A DNA stretch of 64,000 nucleotides from Lacticaseibacillus yichunensis (GTDB taxonomy: Bacteria; Bacillota; Bacilli; Lactobacillales; Lactobacillaceae). Below the pieces are notes generated by a model. The model was given only the letters and a program-made list of their open reading frames with translations, made no database searches and was not told the origin of the DNA. A program made the position numbers and the translations under genes. Positions 14,163 through 54,661 of the stretch are shown here, one piece after another (position 1 is the stretch's first letter; each line of letters begins with the position of its first letter). The stretch covers positions 1 to 64,000 of the forward strand of contig NZ_RHOG01000005.1 in NCBI RefSeq assembly GCF_003946405.1, in the 5' to 3' direction.

Positions 14163-14200
14163 ATAATTAGAGTAACATGGACGACCGGGATTGTCACCAA
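14075..14200. repeat. Direct repeat unit, copy 1 of antisense region
   Basis: This segment is repeated nearly unchanged at 14404-14530. Together with the upstream toxin-like part (13908-14060 and 14238-14392) it shows a tandem duplication of about 330 bp. Confidence 0.85.
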
Positions 14201-14237
14201 TCTGTCGACACAATCTGTCTCTTCATCTCATAATCTA

Positions 14238-14340
14238 CCTGCTTCGGCAGTTGCTAGGAGAATGCCTAGTGGTGGTGGTTTTATTGGCCGCTTGCATTCA
14301 GGCATGGCGCGCTCTTGCGAGAGTATTGCGAGTCAAATAA
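14238..14340 (+). pseudogene. Truncated second copy of the toxin-like frame
   Basis: The coding part from YLLRQLL to the final RVK is repeated, with two amino-acid changes (R to G, G to V) and one silent change. The first 16 codons and the ribosome site are missing; the sequence upstream is unrelated and offers no clear start. It looks like a partial duplicate. Confidence 0.55.
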
Positions 14341-23174: not shown

Positions 23175-23888
23175 TCACAGCGTTACATCGGCCACGATGC
23201 GACTGGTCTTAAATGGAAAATGGCTCTCAGAATACTCGAAGGGCTCGCCGCTGTCGGTATACGCCACTTGCTTGATCACGAGCACCGGTTCGCCGATGCG
23301 CTTGGCCACGCCGGCCGTGACATCGGGCATCCCCGCTTCGATCGCAAACACCTGACGATGGGCCCCGGCGATCTCGATCTCCGCCACATCGCGCAGATAG
23401 CTGTACAGCGAGCCCAGCAGCACCTGCTCCGTCAGGGTCGCGATCTTGGTCGGCATGATCGTATGTTCATAGGCGTATACCTTTTTATCCAGATAGCGCA
23501 CGCGGCGAATGTCGTAGACCGGCGTGCCGCTGTCGATCAGGAGATTTTCCTCCTCATCCGGCGCAGGTAGCCGCGCCTCCAGCCCAAGCACAAGGCTTGA
23601 GACTTGGCGGTCCTGGTAGGTAAAAGTGGTCCCCAGCGGCGCTTCGATGCTGGCGGCTTGGCGCGCGGCGTTGGGGTTGTAGTCCTTGCGTAAAAATGTG
23701 CCGGCGCCGCGTTTTGTGTAAACGACCCCTTCGATGATCAGGCTTTGAATCGCCTTGCGAATGGTGATGCGGGTCGTGTCGAATTGCTTGGCCAGTGTTT
23801 CTTGATCCGGTAACTGGGCGCCTGGGGCATAGGTGCCGTCGGTGAAAAGCGCCTGCAGTTTTTCTGCGATCTCTTGATATTTATACAT
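23175..23888 (-). CDS. GntR/UTRA transcriptional regulator, operon with GH2
   Basis: Regulator of 237 residues. Winged helix at 1-70 (MYKYQEIAEKLQALFTDGTYAPGAQLPDQETLAKQFDTTRITIRKAIQSL) and a UTRA domain at about 85-235 (VYDIRRVRYLDKKVYAYEHTIMP). First gene of an operon with the GH2 enzyme. It probably represses the operon and is released by a phosphorylated sugar. The divergent GH1 gene (24236) may share its control. A family B repeat unit occupies the region just upstream of the start. Confidence 0.92.
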   Translation of the reverse strand: MYKYQEIAEKLQALFTDGTYAPGAQLPDQETLAKQFDTTRITIRKAIQSLIIEGVVYTKRGAGTFLRKDYNPNAARQAASIEAPLGTTFTYQDRQVSSLVLGLEARLPAPDEEENLLIDSGTPVYDIRRVRYLDKKVYAYEHTIMPTKIATLTEQVLLGSLYSYLRDVAEIEIAGAHRQVFAIEAGMPDVTAGVAKRIGEPVLVIKQVAYTDSGEPFEYSESHFPFKTSRIVADVTL

Positions 23889-23901: not shown

Positions 23902-24022
23902 TAGTCAGGCTACAGCTCGCATGGTGGAAACATCTAGGCGGCTCAGGGGCTCGGTGGCCAGGACCGCCACCAAGTCTCTGAGCCGACCTAACTGTTCCAG
24001 CATCCGGCGAGCTTCCGCACCC
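23902..24022 (-). repeat. Family B structured repeat, single unit
   Basis: Read on the minus strand, the unit starts with AAAAAGGGTGCGGA and ends with a form of AGCCTGACT. In between are paired arms: GCTCGC with GCGAGC, TGGAACA with TGTTTCCA, GGCTCAG with CTGAGCC, and a terminal GGTGGC with GCCACC. It lies between the divergent gntR and GH1 genes, close to the gntR start. The same layout is seen at 28883-29176 and 52906-53494. Confidence 0.8.
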
Positions 24023-28882: not shown

Positions 28883-29176
28883 CCAGGCCGAACTATCTGC
28901 TCAGGCCTCCCAGCCCGCTCCGCACCCTTTCCCAGTTGGGCTCCACGGGCCAGGTCTGAGACAGATAGTCAACCCGGTCGCCCGATGGCCAAGTGCGCCA
29001 TCAACCGCCCAGGCCGAACTATCTGCTCAGGCCTCCCAGCCCGCTCCGCACCCTTTCCCAGTTGGGCTTCGGTGCGCATGCTCGAGGCAGCTAGGTACGC
29101 CAGTCACTCGGGGCTTAGTGCGCCCCAAGCGCCAGGCTAGCCTAGCTGCTCGACCATCCCGCGCACCTCCGCACCC
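28883..29176 (-). repeat. Family B structured repeat array, about 2.4 units
   Basis: On the minus strand, units begin at 29176, 29053 and 28927, each with GGGTGCGGAG. The first two end with AGCCCAACTG and the third is cut off after about 45 bp. Internal arms differ between units but stay complementary (for example TTGGGGCGC with GCCCCGAG in one unit, TTGATGGC with GGCCATCG in the next). The array begins one base after the stop codon of the DUF998-like gene and may serve as its 3' end. Confidence 0.85.
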
Positions 29177-29177
29177 T

Positions 29178-30380
29178 TTAATTATGGTGTCGGGTCCGCG
29201 CTTCTGCCTTGACGACTTGCGGAGTTGGGCCTTCTTCCACCAACGTCTGCAGGCGGCCAAACAACATCAAGAGCCAACCGAACGCGATTGCAAAGGCCTG
29301 CACCTCAAACGCCGTCAGCGAGGGATACCCAACCAGCCGAAAGCCGAAATTGAGAATCAGCAGGAAGATCCCTGCCCCGTATGATAACCACAGGAACTCT
29401 TTTGTCACCCCAGGCAACAGCCAGCGCAACCCGATGATCAAAAAGACGATCAGAAACACCAGCATCCCCGACACGGAATCATGCAGCCAGTGAAGCCACG
29501 GCGTATCCGTGAAGTTCGGGAACGCCCCGACCGCGCCGAGATCCACCGCCGTCAGCGTCAGCATCACCCGCAGCAGACTCAACTGCCACGTCCGCGCCAT
29601 CACTTCTTGTAGCGACACAAACAGATAATCGATCAAGGCAACCATGATCAGCGCCGACAAGATCAGCGTGAAATTAAATTGCCAACTGTTGGCCGCTTCC
29701 GGCGACCCCAGAAAACTGAGGTTCCGCTGCCACCAGTGACGCTGCCCATTGGAGGCCATCGAGATCACGACCCCGCCGATGATGACCGTGGTCAAAAGCG
29801 TCGTGAGAATTCGTCCATTGATGCGAAAAGCCGCCGCAACCATAAACGCATTGACGAAAAAATCGAAGATCACCAAGATCAACATCGACGTGAACCGGTC
29901 AAACGCCGCCGTGGGAAAAAGCTCCCCGAGCACCCAGAAAATCCCGATCAACGCGAGCCCCAAGATCAGCACCAGTGACAACGTGATCGTGGGAAAATTT
30001 CGCCAATATATTTTGCTAGAGAATCGGTTCGCATTATCATTGCGCGACTTGATGAAAAAGCCAATAAATAAAAGCGACCCAGAGATCAACCCCAAAATAA
30101 TGGTCAGCGAGGCCACCGAGTTATCACCGGCCAGCGGCATCAACCCGAGATGTTGCACCGACGCATACACCATCGCCACAATTCCCATCACAAGCGCAAC
30201 CGCCAGCGGCCAAATGATCAAATACCGCTGCCGAAGTGGCGACACCACCCCACTCGTGTAACTCAGCGTGTTGCCCCGCACCTTCAGCTGCAACTCGTCC
30301 CCCGGATGAATCGCAAGCTGACTCGCCACCGCATCCGGCACCTCCACCATGATCTTCTTATGTGAACTACTCTGTGCCAT
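29178..30380 (-). CDS. DUF998-like multi-pass membrane protein with AbrB-like N-terminus
   Basis: Protein of 400 residues. The first 45 residues (KIMVEVPDAVASQLAIHPGDELQLKVRGNTLSYTS) resemble a SpoVT/AbrB-type swapped-hairpin domain or other small beta domain. About ten predicted membrane helices follow from residue 52 to 385. The membrane part resembles DUF998 proteins of lactobacilli. The function is unknown. Monocistronic. The 3' end abuts a family B repeat array, with no separate terminator. Confidence 0.7.
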   Translation of the reverse strand: MAQSSSHKKIMVEVPDAVASQLAIHPGDELQLKVRGNTLSYTSGVVSPLRQRYLIIWPLAVALVMGIVAMVYASVQHLGLMPLAGDNSVASLTIILGLISGSLLFIGFFIKSRNDNANRFSSKIYWRNFPTITLSLVLILGLALIGIFWVLGELFPTAAFDRFTSMLILVIFDFFVNAFMVAAAFRINGRILTTLLTTVIIGGVVISMASNGQRHWWQRNLSFLGSPEAANSWQFNFTLILSALIMVALIDYLFVSLQEVMARTWQLSLLRVMLTLTAVDLGAVGAFPNFTDTPWLHWLHDSVSGMLVFLIVFLIIGLRWLLPGVTKEFLWLSYGAGIFLLILNFGFRLVGYPSLTAFEVQAFAIAFGWLLMLFGRLQTLVEEGPTPQVVKAEARTRHHN

Positions 30381-51333: not shown

Positions 51334-52788
51334 TCAGTTGCTTGAGCTCTGACTATCCGTGGACGAGGTGCTCAGCTGCTCAGTGGTCTGAGTCAGCTTG
51401 AGGCTGATCGTCTTCTTGGTGCTTTGGTGATAATACGTGATCTTCACGGTGTCGCCAACGCTGTGCTTGTACAGGGCGGTGTGCAGCTCCGCGACGGACG
51501 AAACCGCGGTGCCGTCGATGGCCGTGATCACGTCATATTGCTGCAGGCCAGCCTTCTTTGCGATCGAGGTGTCGGTGAACCCGGCGACCACCACGCCAGC
51601 CGTGATGCTGCTTGGCAACTTGAGCAGGCTCTCCTGCTGATCAGAGGTCACACTGGACAGATCGCGGACCGTAACGCCAAGCGCCGGGCGAACGACCTTG
51701 CCGTTTGCGACAAGCTGATTGATGATCGAAACGACTTCGTTAGACGGAATGGCAAAGCCCATCCCTTCGATCGTGGCGTTGGAATTGCTGGTACCAGACA
51801 GCTTCATCGAGTTGATTCCGATGACCTGGCCCGACAAATTGATCAGTGGGCCGCCAGAATTACCGGAGTTGATCGCGGCATCGGTCTGGATGACGGTCGC
51901 TTGGCCGGTTGTCTGGCCGGTGGTCTCATCGGTGGTGTCAACGGTCCGGCTGGTAGCCGAAATGATGCCCTGGGTCACGGACGTCGCGTACTGAGAGCCC
52001 AGCGGCGAGCCGATTGCGAGCACAGTCTGCCCAGCGGCGATCTTGCTGGAGTCGCCAAAGCTTGCAACGGTGGTGACTTTGCTACCGTCGATGCTGAGCA
52101 CTGCAAGATCGGTGTCTTCATCGGTGCCGACGAGCTTGGCGGTCACTTTGCTACCGTCGCTCATGATGACTTCAAGGGCGTCGCTGCCTTCGACCACGTG
52201 GTAGTTGGTGACGATGTAGGCCTTACCGTCTTTCTTTTCATAAATGACGCCAGAGCCTTCGCCGTATTCCTCAAGCGATCCAGAATCGGAGCTGGAAGAG
52301 TTGCTATCAGAATCGTCGGAAGAGCCCGAGCCGTAACTGTCGCTGGAGCCTGAGCCATCGCTACTGGAACCCCAGCCGTTGCCGAAGATATCGCCAAATG
52401 AATCGAGGCCGCTGCTCGTGCTTTGGGCCTTTTGCATGTTGACGACGGAAACGACCGCTTTTTCAACTTTTGCAAAAGCCGTTTGCGAAGCCGAGCTTTC
52501 ATTGACCGACACATTGGAGACTTGTGTCGTGCCCGCCTTTTGCGTGGTCGAGGTGACGCCCAGGTCTTGGCCTTGAGCGGTCTTGGTGAAGCCGTAGTAC
52601 GCAGCCCCACCGCCGACGCCACCGCCGATCAGCGCGGCAACAACGGCAACGAGCGCGGTCGACTTGAGCCCGCTGCGCCGTTTCTTCGGCTGCGGTGCCG
52701 CCGCATTGAGTGCTTGACGCGACTGTGACAATGGTGCGCCTGTGATTGGATCGAATTTCTTTTCTTGATCGTTATTTTGATTATCCAT
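51334..52788 (-). CDS. htrA: Serine protease HtrA (Do-like)
   Basis: Membrane-anchored quality-control protease of 484 residues. Cytoplasmic N-terminus, one membrane helix (about 43-68), a Ser/Gly/Asp-rich linker (about 125-170), then a trypsin-like domain with catalytic His in IVTNYHVVEG, Asp in DEDTDLAVL and Ser in AINSGNSGGPLI. A PDZ domain (about 370-465) contains GVVVAGFTDTSIAKKAGLQQYDVITAIDG. It degrades misfolded exported proteins. It normally follows walJ; here a structured repeat array and a broken hicB separate the two. Confidence 0.95.
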   Translation of the reverse strand: MDNQNNDQEKKFDPITGAPLSQSRQALNAAAPQPKKRRSGLKSTALVAVVAALIGGGVGGGAAYYGFTKTAQGQDLGVTSTTQKAGTTQVSNVSVNESSASQTAFAKVEKAVVSVVNMQKAQSTSSGLDSFGDIFGNGWGSSSDGSGSSDSYGSGSSDDSDSNSSSSDSGSLEEYGEGSGVIYEKKDGKAYIVTNYHVVEGSDALEVIMSDGSKVTAKLVGTDEDTDLAVLSIDGSKVTTVASFGDSSKIAAGQTVLAIGSPLGSQYATSVTQGIISATSRTVDTTDETTGQTTGQATVIQTDAAINSGNSGGPLINLSGQVIGINSMKLSGTSNSNATIEGMGFAIPSNEVVSIINQLVANGKVVRPALGVTVRDLSSVTSDQQESLLKLPSSITAGVVVAGFTDTSIAKKAGLQQYDVITAIDGTAVSSVAELHTALYKHSVGDTVKITYYHQSTKKTISLKLTQTTEQLSTSSTDSQSSSN

Positions 52789-52905
52789 TACGAAGTCCCT
52801 CCTCGGTGATCTGCTCCGTTTCTACAAGACATATATTAACGGGTGTCTGTGATGAATTTATGAAGAAGGATTGCACTTTCTTTCAATTGTGTGACATTTG
52901 AAAAA

Positions 52906-53494
52906 GGGTGCGCAGGTGCGCGGGATGGTGGGGCAACTAATTTGGCTTGAGCGCTTGATAGCGCACTTGGCTATCGAGTGCTCGAGACAATTAGATGACC
53001 CCACCATGCGCACCGGAGCCCGACTACAAAAAGGGTGCGCAGCGCGGCGTTTAGGTCTGAGCAGCTAACTTGGCCCTGGCGCTTGGGGCGCACTTCGCCC
53101 CGAGTGACGGGGACAGTTAGATGCCTCAGACCTGCCGCGCGGAGCCCGACTGAAAAAGGGTGCGGAGGCTCGCGTTTAGGGGTGGGCAGTTAGCTTGGCC
53201 TAGGTGCTTGGGGCCGCTCTTAGCCCCGAGTGCCTAGGTCAGCTAAATGTCCCACCCCTGCGAGCCGGAGCCCGACTGAAAAAGGGTGCGGAGGCTCGCG
53301 TTTAGGGGTGGGCAGTTAGCTTGGCCTAGGTGCTTGGGCCGCTCTTAGCCCCGAGTGACGGGGACAGTTAGATGCCTCAGACCTGCCGCGCGGAGCCCGA
53401 CTGAAAAGGGTGCGGAGGCTCGCGTTTAGGGGTGGGCAGTTAGCTTGGCCTAGGTGCTTGGGGCGCACTTCGCCCCGAGTGCCTAGGTCAGCTA
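52906..53494 (+). repeat. Family B structured repeat array, about 4.7 units
   Basis: Units start at 52906, 53033, 53158, 53284 and 53408, each with GGGTGCG after an A-rich spacer. The first four end with GGAGCCCGACT; the last is cut at 53494. Each forms a long hairpin, but the arm sequences differ: unit 1 CTTGATAGC/GCTATCGAG, unit 2 CTTGGGGCG/CGCCCCGAG. Unit 4 combines the left arm of unit 3 with the right arm of unit 2, so its stems mismatch, as expected after unequal recombination. The last unit runs into the 3' end of hicB. Confidence 0.9.
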
Positions 53495-53758
53495 TCCTTC
53501 TTGGCCTTTTCGCGATACCGCCCGGTCATAGTCACAGCGATGTATGCAACGGTCTCATTCGCTTCAAGATGCCATTTTGAGTGGTCTTGGACAGCAGGAT
53601 AGTCCTCGCGATGGCGTCCGCGGCCTCGATCGCGGCGTGCACGTGGTCATCCCCTTGCGTGACCATCCCCGGGATATTGGGGCTGGTCACGGTAATATAA
53701 TGGCCGTCATCATTATTTTCCTGAAAGATGACCGGAAAAGTAGAACTTTATTCTGCAT
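53488..53758 (-). pseudogene. hicB-like antitoxin remnant
   Basis: Starts at ATG 53758 with AGGAGGG upstream. The first frame reads MQNKVLLF. One missing base in a T run shifts it; the next frame gives PVIFQENNDDGHYITVTSPNIPGMVTQGDD, the HicB signature, then HAAIEAADAIA. After a second shift a third frame reads EDYPAVQDHSKWHLEANE and TVAYIAVTMTGRYREKAKKD, ending in a TGA (53488-53490) inside the repeat array. The gene is thus frameshifted at least twice and cut at its C-terminus. No hicA toxin is visible. Confidence 0.75.
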
Positions 53759-53775
53759 GAATTTTCCCTCCTAAT

Positions 53776-53845: not shown

Positions 53846-54643
53846 CTACGCCCCAACGGTGAACAGCGGATCCGGCACTTCCGGATCGGTATCGTACAGC
53901 TCAAAATCGTGGCCCACACCGAGGCCCTGCTGCATCAACAGATCGGCCACAGTCGCATGGGCCAGCGACTTGAAGTTGTTGTGCGGCGACAAATGCCCCA
54001 AGTAAACGCGCTTGGTGCGCAACCCGATCACATCCATGATTGCATCTGCCCCATCCTCATTCGACAAATGGCCCGTGTCGGATAAGATTCGCTGCTGAAG
54101 TGGCCACGGATACGGTCCTTGCCGCAACATGTCGATATCATGGTTGCATTCCATCACATACGCGTCCGCGTCGCGAATCGTGCCCGCCACCGTGTCCGAG
54201 ACATAGCCGGTATCGGTGACGATCGCAAACGCATGGTCATCGTGATGAAACTGGTAAAATTGAGCCGCCGCCGAGTCGTGGGAGACGCCAAAGCTCTCGA
54301 CATCCAGATCGCCCAGGCTCAAGGTCGCCCCACGGTCAAAAACATGGAGTTGGTCCGCTGGCAGTTTTCCCAGGCTCGTTGGCAGGGCCGCAAGTGTCGG
54401 GGCATTGGCGTAGACTGCCAGCTTCGGGTAGCGCCTCGCGAGCACGCCCACGCCGCGGCAGTGGTCGCTATGTTCGTGGGTGATGAAAAGACTGTCCACG
54501 TCGCTGAGATCGCGGCCAATGCTGGCCATCATCGCCGCCAGCCGCTTCCCGGAAAAACCGGCGTCGACCAGCACCTTATGTTCGGGTGTCTCAATATAAG
54601 TCGCGTTGCCGGAGCTGCTGCTGGCGAGCACCGAAACGCGCAT
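53846..54643 (-). CDS. walJ: MBL-fold metallohydrolase WalJ (YycJ)
   Basis: Metallo-beta-lactamase fold protein of about 265 residues. Motifs: SSSSGNATYIETPEHKVLVDAGFSGKRL at the start, the metal site THEHSDHCRGV, VSHDSAAAQFYQFHHDDHAFAIVTDTG and VMECNHDIDML, and a late YLGHLSPHNN. WalJ proteins are exonuclease-like and linked to cell division and DNA repair. I prefer the ATG at 54643, with GAGGA upstream, though an ATG at 54661 is possible. It belongs to the wal cluster but is separated from walI by a terminator. Confidence 0.9.
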   Translation of the reverse strand: MRVSVLASSSSGNATYIETPEHKVLVDAGFSGKRLAAMMASIGRDLSDVDSLFITHEHSDHCRGVGVLARRYPKLAVYANAPTLAALPTSLGKLPADQLHVFDRGATLSLGDLDVESFGVSHDSAAAQFYQFHHDDHAFAIVTDTGYVSDTVAGTIRDADAYVMECNHDIDMLRQGPYPWPLQQRILSDTGHLSNEDGADAIMDVIGLRTKRVYLGHLSPHNNFKSLAHATVADLLMQQGLGVGHDFELYDTDPEVPDPLFTVGA

Positions 54644-54661
54644 GCCAAAATCCTCGCTCAT

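Follow-up and report, generated by a model that had tools for sequence, protein, structure and literature searches.

Bacterial MITE-like intergenic hairpins such as RUP, NEMIS/Correia, ERIC, and bcr1 are described as noncoding, folded sequences of 70-300 bp that often lie next to genes (PMC3733652). In the same account, MITEs have terminal inverted repeats of 15-30 bp and are mobilised by transposases recognising these repeats, and REPs are high-copy extragenic palindromes, sometimes clustered or in tandem (PMC3733652). REPs are generally given as 20-40 bp in length with a GTAG/CGTC tag. For the Bacillus cereus group, it was reported that copies of the 18 families bcr1-bcr18 lie in mRNA in 84/165 and 62/155 cases and that bcr1-3 are MITE-like (PMC3446304).

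The window (the whole stretch of 64,000 nucleotides analysed here) carries a tandem array of long hairpins beside an htrA gene. How does this locus compare with the described systems? Like MITEs, the Lactobacillaceae hairpin falls in the 70-300 bp range and is non-coding, dispersed, and present in high copy number. Unlike MITEs, it has no long terminal inverted repeats: the pairing between its conserved ends spans about 4 bp, and their tails are asymmetric. Its arms are not conserved in sequence, it forms polar head-to-tail arrays whose last unit is truncated, and no related transposase was found in a survey covering the Y1_Tnp and RVT_1 families. As to target duplication, one site has AAAAA duplicated and another has no duplication, while the linkers between units are similar to left flanks. 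The linkers are 1-8 nt in length, mostly 3 or 6, and such variable length is unusual for DDE-type target duplication.

The likeness to REPs and BIMEs lies in the high-copy extragenic palindromes that are sometimes in tandem. RAYT (Y1) transposases recognise REPs as single-strand hairpins. However, the present unit is about 120 bp in length, shows no dependence on the presence of Y1_Tnp, and has no inverted neighbours in 144 arrays. Of the 30 genomes of the genus, 13 have Y1_Tnp (PF01797), including the window's genome (G000) and its sister genome (G013). Mobilisation by RAYT was rejected, as Y1_Tnp is absent from G010, G011, G018, and G020, each of which has at least 121 copies of the hairpin. 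Copying by a retroelement with its own reverse transcriptase was also rejected, there being no RVT_1 in G000 or G013.

Integron attC sites are single-strand hairpins recognised by their fold and extrahelical bases, and their arms are variable. The present hairpin resembles them in being a single-strand hairpin with variable arms. It differs in having no cassettes and in its terminal tails, which vary between genomes (AACT, GTTT, GTTA, and GACG); thus, the attC core is not conserved. The bcr1-bcr18 repeats are likewise Gram-positive intergenic families. They belong to another host family, and the part of the bcr account used here makes no mention of tandem covarying arrays. The hairpin family was not found described in the titles and abstracts of the literature searched (supplements and most subscription papers were outside this scope). 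A table of stem-loop clusters of Lactobacillus johnsonii appears in PMC2267715. For L. casei BL23, 307 putative small RNAs are reported, and the tables that list them may include hairpin loci (PMC8220740).

Hairpin units in the window

The features of the window are as follows.

51334-52788, minus strand: gene of an HtrA-type serine protease (Trypsin_2 and PDZ), a neighbour outside the element
52898-52905, plus strand: left flank of the array, TTGAAAAA, last base A
52906-53025, plus strand: array unit 1, intact hairpin (RNA MFE -75.1; 126.1 bits with covariance model R1)
53033-53151, plus strand: array unit 2, intact hairpin (RNA MFE -77.2; R1 127.3 bits)
53158-53277, plus strand: array unit 3, intact hairpin (RNA MFE -86.7; R1 131 bits)
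53284-53402, plus strand: array unit 4, chimera, weaker hairpin (MFE -51.8)
53408 to about 53494, plus strand: array unit 5, right side truncated, mosaic of units 3 and 2
29060-29176, minus strand: unit of a second array, left end 1 nt past the stop codon of the ORF at 29178-30380 (minus strand)
28934-29053, minus strand: second unit of that array
about 28883-28927, minus strand: terminal truncated unit of the second array (units from 29176 to 28934)
23903-24022, minus strand: single unit, lying upstream of the gene of a GntR-type regulator (23175-23888, minus strand)

On the plus strand of 52906-53494, three intact hairpin units, one chimera, and one truncated unit stand head to tail. A reading made from the sequence alone had counted nearly five units of about 120 bp; this is right for units 1-3 but the fourth is chimeric and the fifth a truncated mosaic. 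The intact units are 119-120 nt in length and form near-perfect bulged hairpins of -75 to -87 kcal/mol as RNA. They retain 100% of the consensus pairs, and unit 4 retains 87%. Unit 4 repeats the left 55 nt of unit 3 exactly and, at its other end, the right 55 nt of unit 2. In unit 5, the first 57 nt are as in unit 3, the apex is as in unit 2, and the next 23 nt are again as in unit 3; its R1 score of 65.5 bits comes from a model fit that extends into non-homologous sequence. The exchange points of units 4 and 5 lie near the shared apex and may mark natural recombinants or an error of the draft assembly. The linkers of this array (ACAAAAA, GAAAAA, GAAAAA, and GAAAA) are similar to its left flank. 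The related units that the same reading had placed at 23902-24022 and 28883-29176 are present, with the edges listed above, all on the minus strand.

As had been noted, the array lies upstream of htrA: it starts 117 bp before the htrA start codon and runs in the opposite orientation. On its other side is a metallo-beta-lactamase-fold gene (53846-54661), which, by its position, is presumably walJ/yycJ. A short ORF on the minus strand between this gene and the array (about 53500-53770) looks by eye like a putative HicB-type antitoxin or a remnant of one. The link between the array and htrA is positional only, and nothing connects it with regulation of htrA. Among the named genomes matched, the nearest HtrA is that of Lacticaseibacillus baoqingensis (73%), and a search of its htrA locus for the motif ends gave no match. 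The first two units of the array have orthologs in the sister species. With Rfam, no match at gathering score was found in the window, and permissive scans of the array and nine other loci stayed below that score, their matches being microRNA-like apart from one to an sRNA.

Fold, strand, and inheritance of the stems

The arms had been described as quite different between units and still complementary, and this covariation was borne out. In 24 units of the window's own genome, both-sided changes occur in 24 of 39 pairs. In an alignment of 54 units from several genomes, which was fitted to the structure and thus favours pairing, 93.7% of the cells are paired, compared with 69.0% in shuffled alignments and 33.7-39.0% in slid versions. 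Both-sided changes were found in 35 pairs of this alignment against 27.2 after shuffling. Its covariation score of 0.692 compares with 0.213 after shuffling and was reached by 0 of 500 shuffles (the shuffles ignore relatedness). The covariation is real, but copies that exchange blocks may have produced part of it, so that covariation alone is no proof of a functional RNA.

The fold is strand-specific. Taken together, the two closest genomes provide 221 distinct units, with 1109 G-T cells and 119 A-C cells. When the 34 pairs that have neither G-T nor A-C as a rule are taken, the numbers are 298 and 114, and 21 pairs have more G-T and 9 more A-C. The MFE of the plus strand is better in 219 of the 221 units, with a mean gain of 12.9 kcal/mol. 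From the G-T excess and the better fold of the plus strand, the single-stranded plus strand, whether RNA or DNA, seems to be the form that matters.

Are the two arms of a stem inherited together? Blocks that are partners in the stem are linked, the normalised mutual information being 0.56, 0.38, 0.72, and 0.38 from the outer block to the apex (20 shuffles subtracted, here and below). Within one arm, neighbouring blocks reach 0.21-0.39, and the outer block is nearly independent of the inner or apex block (0.09-0.15). For the apex block, the link to its partner (0.38) is no stronger than those to the inner blocks (0.34-0.39). Thus, inheritance is governed more by pairing than by distance in the outer and inner stems; in the middle stem this is less clear, and at the apex it does not hold. 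Fewer than 85% of the consensus pairs are kept by 13 of 226 units, compared with about 80% of random left/right chimeras. Such a block pattern would be expected from exchange proceeding outward from the apex (for instance, gap repair after a hairpin breaks at the tip) or from template switching between the arms. Selection against mispaired recombinants would give the same pattern. Unit 4 of the htrA-side array shows that linear left/right recombinants arise, if it is not an assembly error.

Copies, arrays, and turnover

A genome-wide search with a covariance model was proposed by the sequence-only reading, as was a search of other genera, and both revealed further copies. In the window's genome, blastn lists 48 places, R1 has at least 150 full-length matches, and a strict pattern has at least 160 (160 counted, against 0 for a reversed control pattern). 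Since this pattern detects 77 of 116 full units in the G000 and G013 stretches examined, about 240 full copies may be extrapolated for the genome. The units are about 115-124 bp in length (mean about 119). Among 30 genomes of the genus, counting that of the window, R1 matches 25 and R2, a family model built from the 54 units of several genomes, matches 29. In the survey of Lactobacillaceae, R2 matches at least 75 of 301 genomes with the window's own, or at least 74 of the 300 others (13 of those 74 are congeners), and 16 of 40 genera are represented. In a phylum sample, it matches at least 2 of 299, namely the window's own and a single 45.6-bit match (at least 1 of 298 others). Both surveys used stricter filters and scored no more than 12 candidates in each genome, and their counts are lower bounds. 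Distant units in three other genera (G049, G176, and G257/G286) share by eye a common plan of a short base helix, an internal loop, an outer stem, a left bulge, a long stem, a small apex, and a short tail.

Units of the casei type are also found on plasmids. The 21 records, some of which are described as complete, comprise 9 from Pediococcus, 6 from Lacticaseibacillus, and 6 from Lactiplantibacillus. Casei-type units were sought in phages and own-type units in plasmids, and none were found in either.

The anatomy of the arrays was studied in 836,733 bases of G000 and 1,174,552 bases of G013. These contain 70 and 74 arrays, none of mixed orientation, so that all are head to tail. The left border is sharp (A|G); the base preceding the first unit is A in 65/67 and 67/72 arrays. 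The likeness of linkers to the left flank of their own array is 0.501 against 0.359 (sd 0.041) in G000 and 0.494 against 0.350 (sd 0.034) in G013, with 0 of 2000 shuffles as high. Neighbouring linkers are equal in length in 36/49 and 24/42 cases, where chance gives 0.26 and 0.20. Neighbouring units have terminal bases in common, and their arms are as unlike as those of unrelated copies, apart from near-identical pairs (85% or more), which make up 21 of 97. An avoidance of the same arm type between neighbours was considered and rejected: over all pairs it is 27/53 against 27.2 expected and 22/44 against 23.3, and the apparent effect arose from omitting the near-identical pairs.

The least expected feature is the polarity of the arrays, whose last unit, on the right, is usually truncated. 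When 150 random positions were scored in each genome and their 99th percentile was taken as the threshold, a terminal truncated unit was detected in 42/63 and 53/66 arrays, mostly comprising a part of the first 45 nt. In the mirror test, a right-arm remnant to the left of the array was found in 6/68 and 4/74, and several of these are by eye whole units with a deleted apex or lie at the edge of the stretch examined. An autonomous copy split in two was also looked for; the right-half fragments resemble deletion products or stretch edges, and none was seen.

The sister genome is a close relative, with about 90-96% identity in long alignments. In the stretches compared, 32 of the 70 G000 arrays were paired with an ortholog in G013; the numbers of full units are equal in 10 and unequal in 22. 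An empty site was revealed for the unit L143:15549-15664, which has AAAAA on both sides where the relative has a single AAAAA. It is the only clean one, its surroundings are an A-run, and the same picture would result if the unit had been deleted precisely between the AAAAA repeats. A second pair of absence and presence (L258:14109 and L145:5832) has no duplication. By eye, the remnant in the relative corresponds to the full unit's left arm at L152:11839, L168:1178, and L231:17067, and at L215:19136 and L229:11248 it is rather like a terminal truncated unit. Thus, changes at the right end and at the left end both occur. In one relative, a unit is reduced to its joined ends, as a deletion between CGGAG repeats would leave. 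Most other differences inspected base by base, four plasmid loci among closely matching records included, are deletion-like or changes in unit number and not new insertions; at the plasmid loci, these are hairpin deletions at short repeats or changes in unit number, with the direction inferred.

Two further kinds of repeat were seen in these comparisons. At L216, about 14185-14330, consecutive minimal repeats GGGTGCGAAGCCCAACTGGAAA resemble units whose whole hairpin has been deleted, with the joined ends left. At L241:1377-1632 and L221:7888-8439, a different repeat with long self-complementary stretches (AAGCTCACTTTCGG..., ...GAGGGGGCTGAGCC...) has been gained or lost between the sister genomes.

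A probable mobile hairpin and the alternatives

The hairpin is apparently an undescribed kind of small mobile element, in which the fold is kept, the sequence is freely replaced, and the copy number is quick to change. Probably, though with considerable doubt, it is a non-autonomous MITE/REP-like family of Lactobacillaceae, an imperfect palindrome whose plus strand must fold as a single strand. A putative enzyme would recognise the folded plus strand by its base, bulges, and conserved termini and not by the arm sequence. Insertion would occur just after an A with a few base pairs duplicated, and stop codons and terminator ends may be preferred or best tolerated as sites. Repeated insertion at the same border together with tandem duplication might build the head-to-tail arrays, the linkers being copies of the left flank. 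Deletions between short repeats, provoked by the hairpin, would take out apices or whole units. The arms may be renewed in paired blocks, when a hairpin broken at the apex is gap-repaired from another copy or when the template is switched between the arms. The array beside htrA would be a locus of this kind. If the hairpin is mobile and its arrays grow by insertion or duplication and shrink by hairpin-driven loss, then the dispersal, the left border, the linkers, the turnover, and the strand-specific fold are explained. By itself, this mechanism leaves the truncated last unit unexplained and names no enzyme. Still, of the three options offered by the sequence-only reading (a structured RNA, a protein-bound DNA array, and a new mobile element), the last is the best supported, with one clean insertion site and no transposase identified, and the protein-bound array is less favoured.

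If the mobile hairpin is the right reading, an abundant non-coding repeat family of lactobacilli, which are food and probiotic bacteria, is unnamed in the literature searched. It would be a tractable case of a mobile element recognised by its single-strand structure, with a nearly free arm sequence. As a natural system, it would also allow hairpin-driven events (insertion, conversion, and deletion) to be observed within a genome. The arrays may also serve as a practical marker, as they vary even among otherwise near-identical plasmid stretches.

Could the unit instead be a structured RNA? Its plus strand would be transcribed in UTRs and operon spacers and act on the mRNA (3'-end protection, RNase III processing, or termination), and selection on the RNA fold would yield the covariation. 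The strand-specific fold, the conserved G-U pairs, and the strong covariation across species agree with this. So does the position of many arrays relative to stop codons: in sense cases within 100 nt, the left end lies at -1 to 6 nt of the stop codon in 16/25 and 18/25 (A-preceded sites there, 12.7% and 13.2%). When upstream genes point into the array, 18/30 and 20/28 left ends fall no more than 12 nt from the stop codon, compared with 1/32 and 1/37 on the start-codon side. However, there is no preference for the sense orientation, as the upstream gene reads in at 30/62 and 28/65 arrays (expected 0.50 and 0.52), and arrays that are antisense to both neighbours form the most frequent class (21/62 and 24/65); the context genes are from a simple ORF caller, and the counts are not independent, because G000 and G013 share loci. 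Moreover, the number of units at a given gene is not conserved, and no Rfam family matches at gathering score. A cis-acting structured RNA is weakened, because the arrays are about equally sense and antisense to their neighbours, although the strand specificity of the single-strand fold is clear. An RNA function is rather unlikely. The placement at stop codons and terminator ends (several other left ends come after terminator-like T-runs) is targeting or tolerance, which these counts do not distinguish.

It is also conceivable, but doubtful, that this is a new kind of mobile element, the identity of which is its fold. Arrays would be written one way, beginning at a fixed point that is often the 3' end of a gene (stop codon or terminator end), and would stop at random, in a cell that has no recognised reverse transcriptase of its own. 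The arms would be inherited in paired blocks, and the structure instead of the sequence would be copied and selected. The truncated last unit would follow, because one-way writing stops at random. If this were true, a polar single-strand intermediate (ssDNA or RNA) and a new host or mobile enzyme would be implied.

According to a further explanation, the units are ordinary tandem repeats that are palindromic only through mutation processes (slippage, template switching between arms, and gene conversion), with neither present mobility nor function. The near-identical neighbours, the origin of units 4 and 5 as recombinants of units 2 and 3, the block linkage, and the deletion-like nature of most differences between the species would fit. 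Nevertheless, the roughly 240 dispersed copies, the plasmids of several genera, the strict A|G border, and the flank-like linkers exceed local slippage alone, and I regard this explanation as improbable.

A protein-bound DNA array for nucleoid organisation, or as a barrier or recombination site, would be intergenic and in tandem with conserved termini and spacing, as these arrays are. A double-strand site, however, needs no strand-specific, G-U compatible pairing and would conserve sequence over pairing, and the orientation of the arrays to GC skew and replication is not significant (28:34 and 29:41). A role of this kind is very unlikely. An assembly artefact is hardly credible: the draft is in 73 contigs, and short-read assembly could create a unit 4 that is a chimera of its neighbours, but arrays of the same kind are present in the single-contig congener G020 and in plasmid records described as complete, and, given the orthologs of the first two units, only the exact make-up of units 4 and 5 could be artefactual.

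Two minor observations concern the positions of arrays. Arrays with the plus strand on the C-rich strand are longer in G000 (1.32 versus 2.06 units, p = 0.025), with 1.34 versus 1.56 units (p = 0.36) in G013. This is a weak lead that matches the prediction of hairpin loss on the lagging-strand template. In addition, the flank TTTTTTGATTCA, directly after a terminator-like stretch, recurs before independent arrays (L215, L160, and others) and is perhaps an insertion hot spot or a sequence that moved together with the hairpin.
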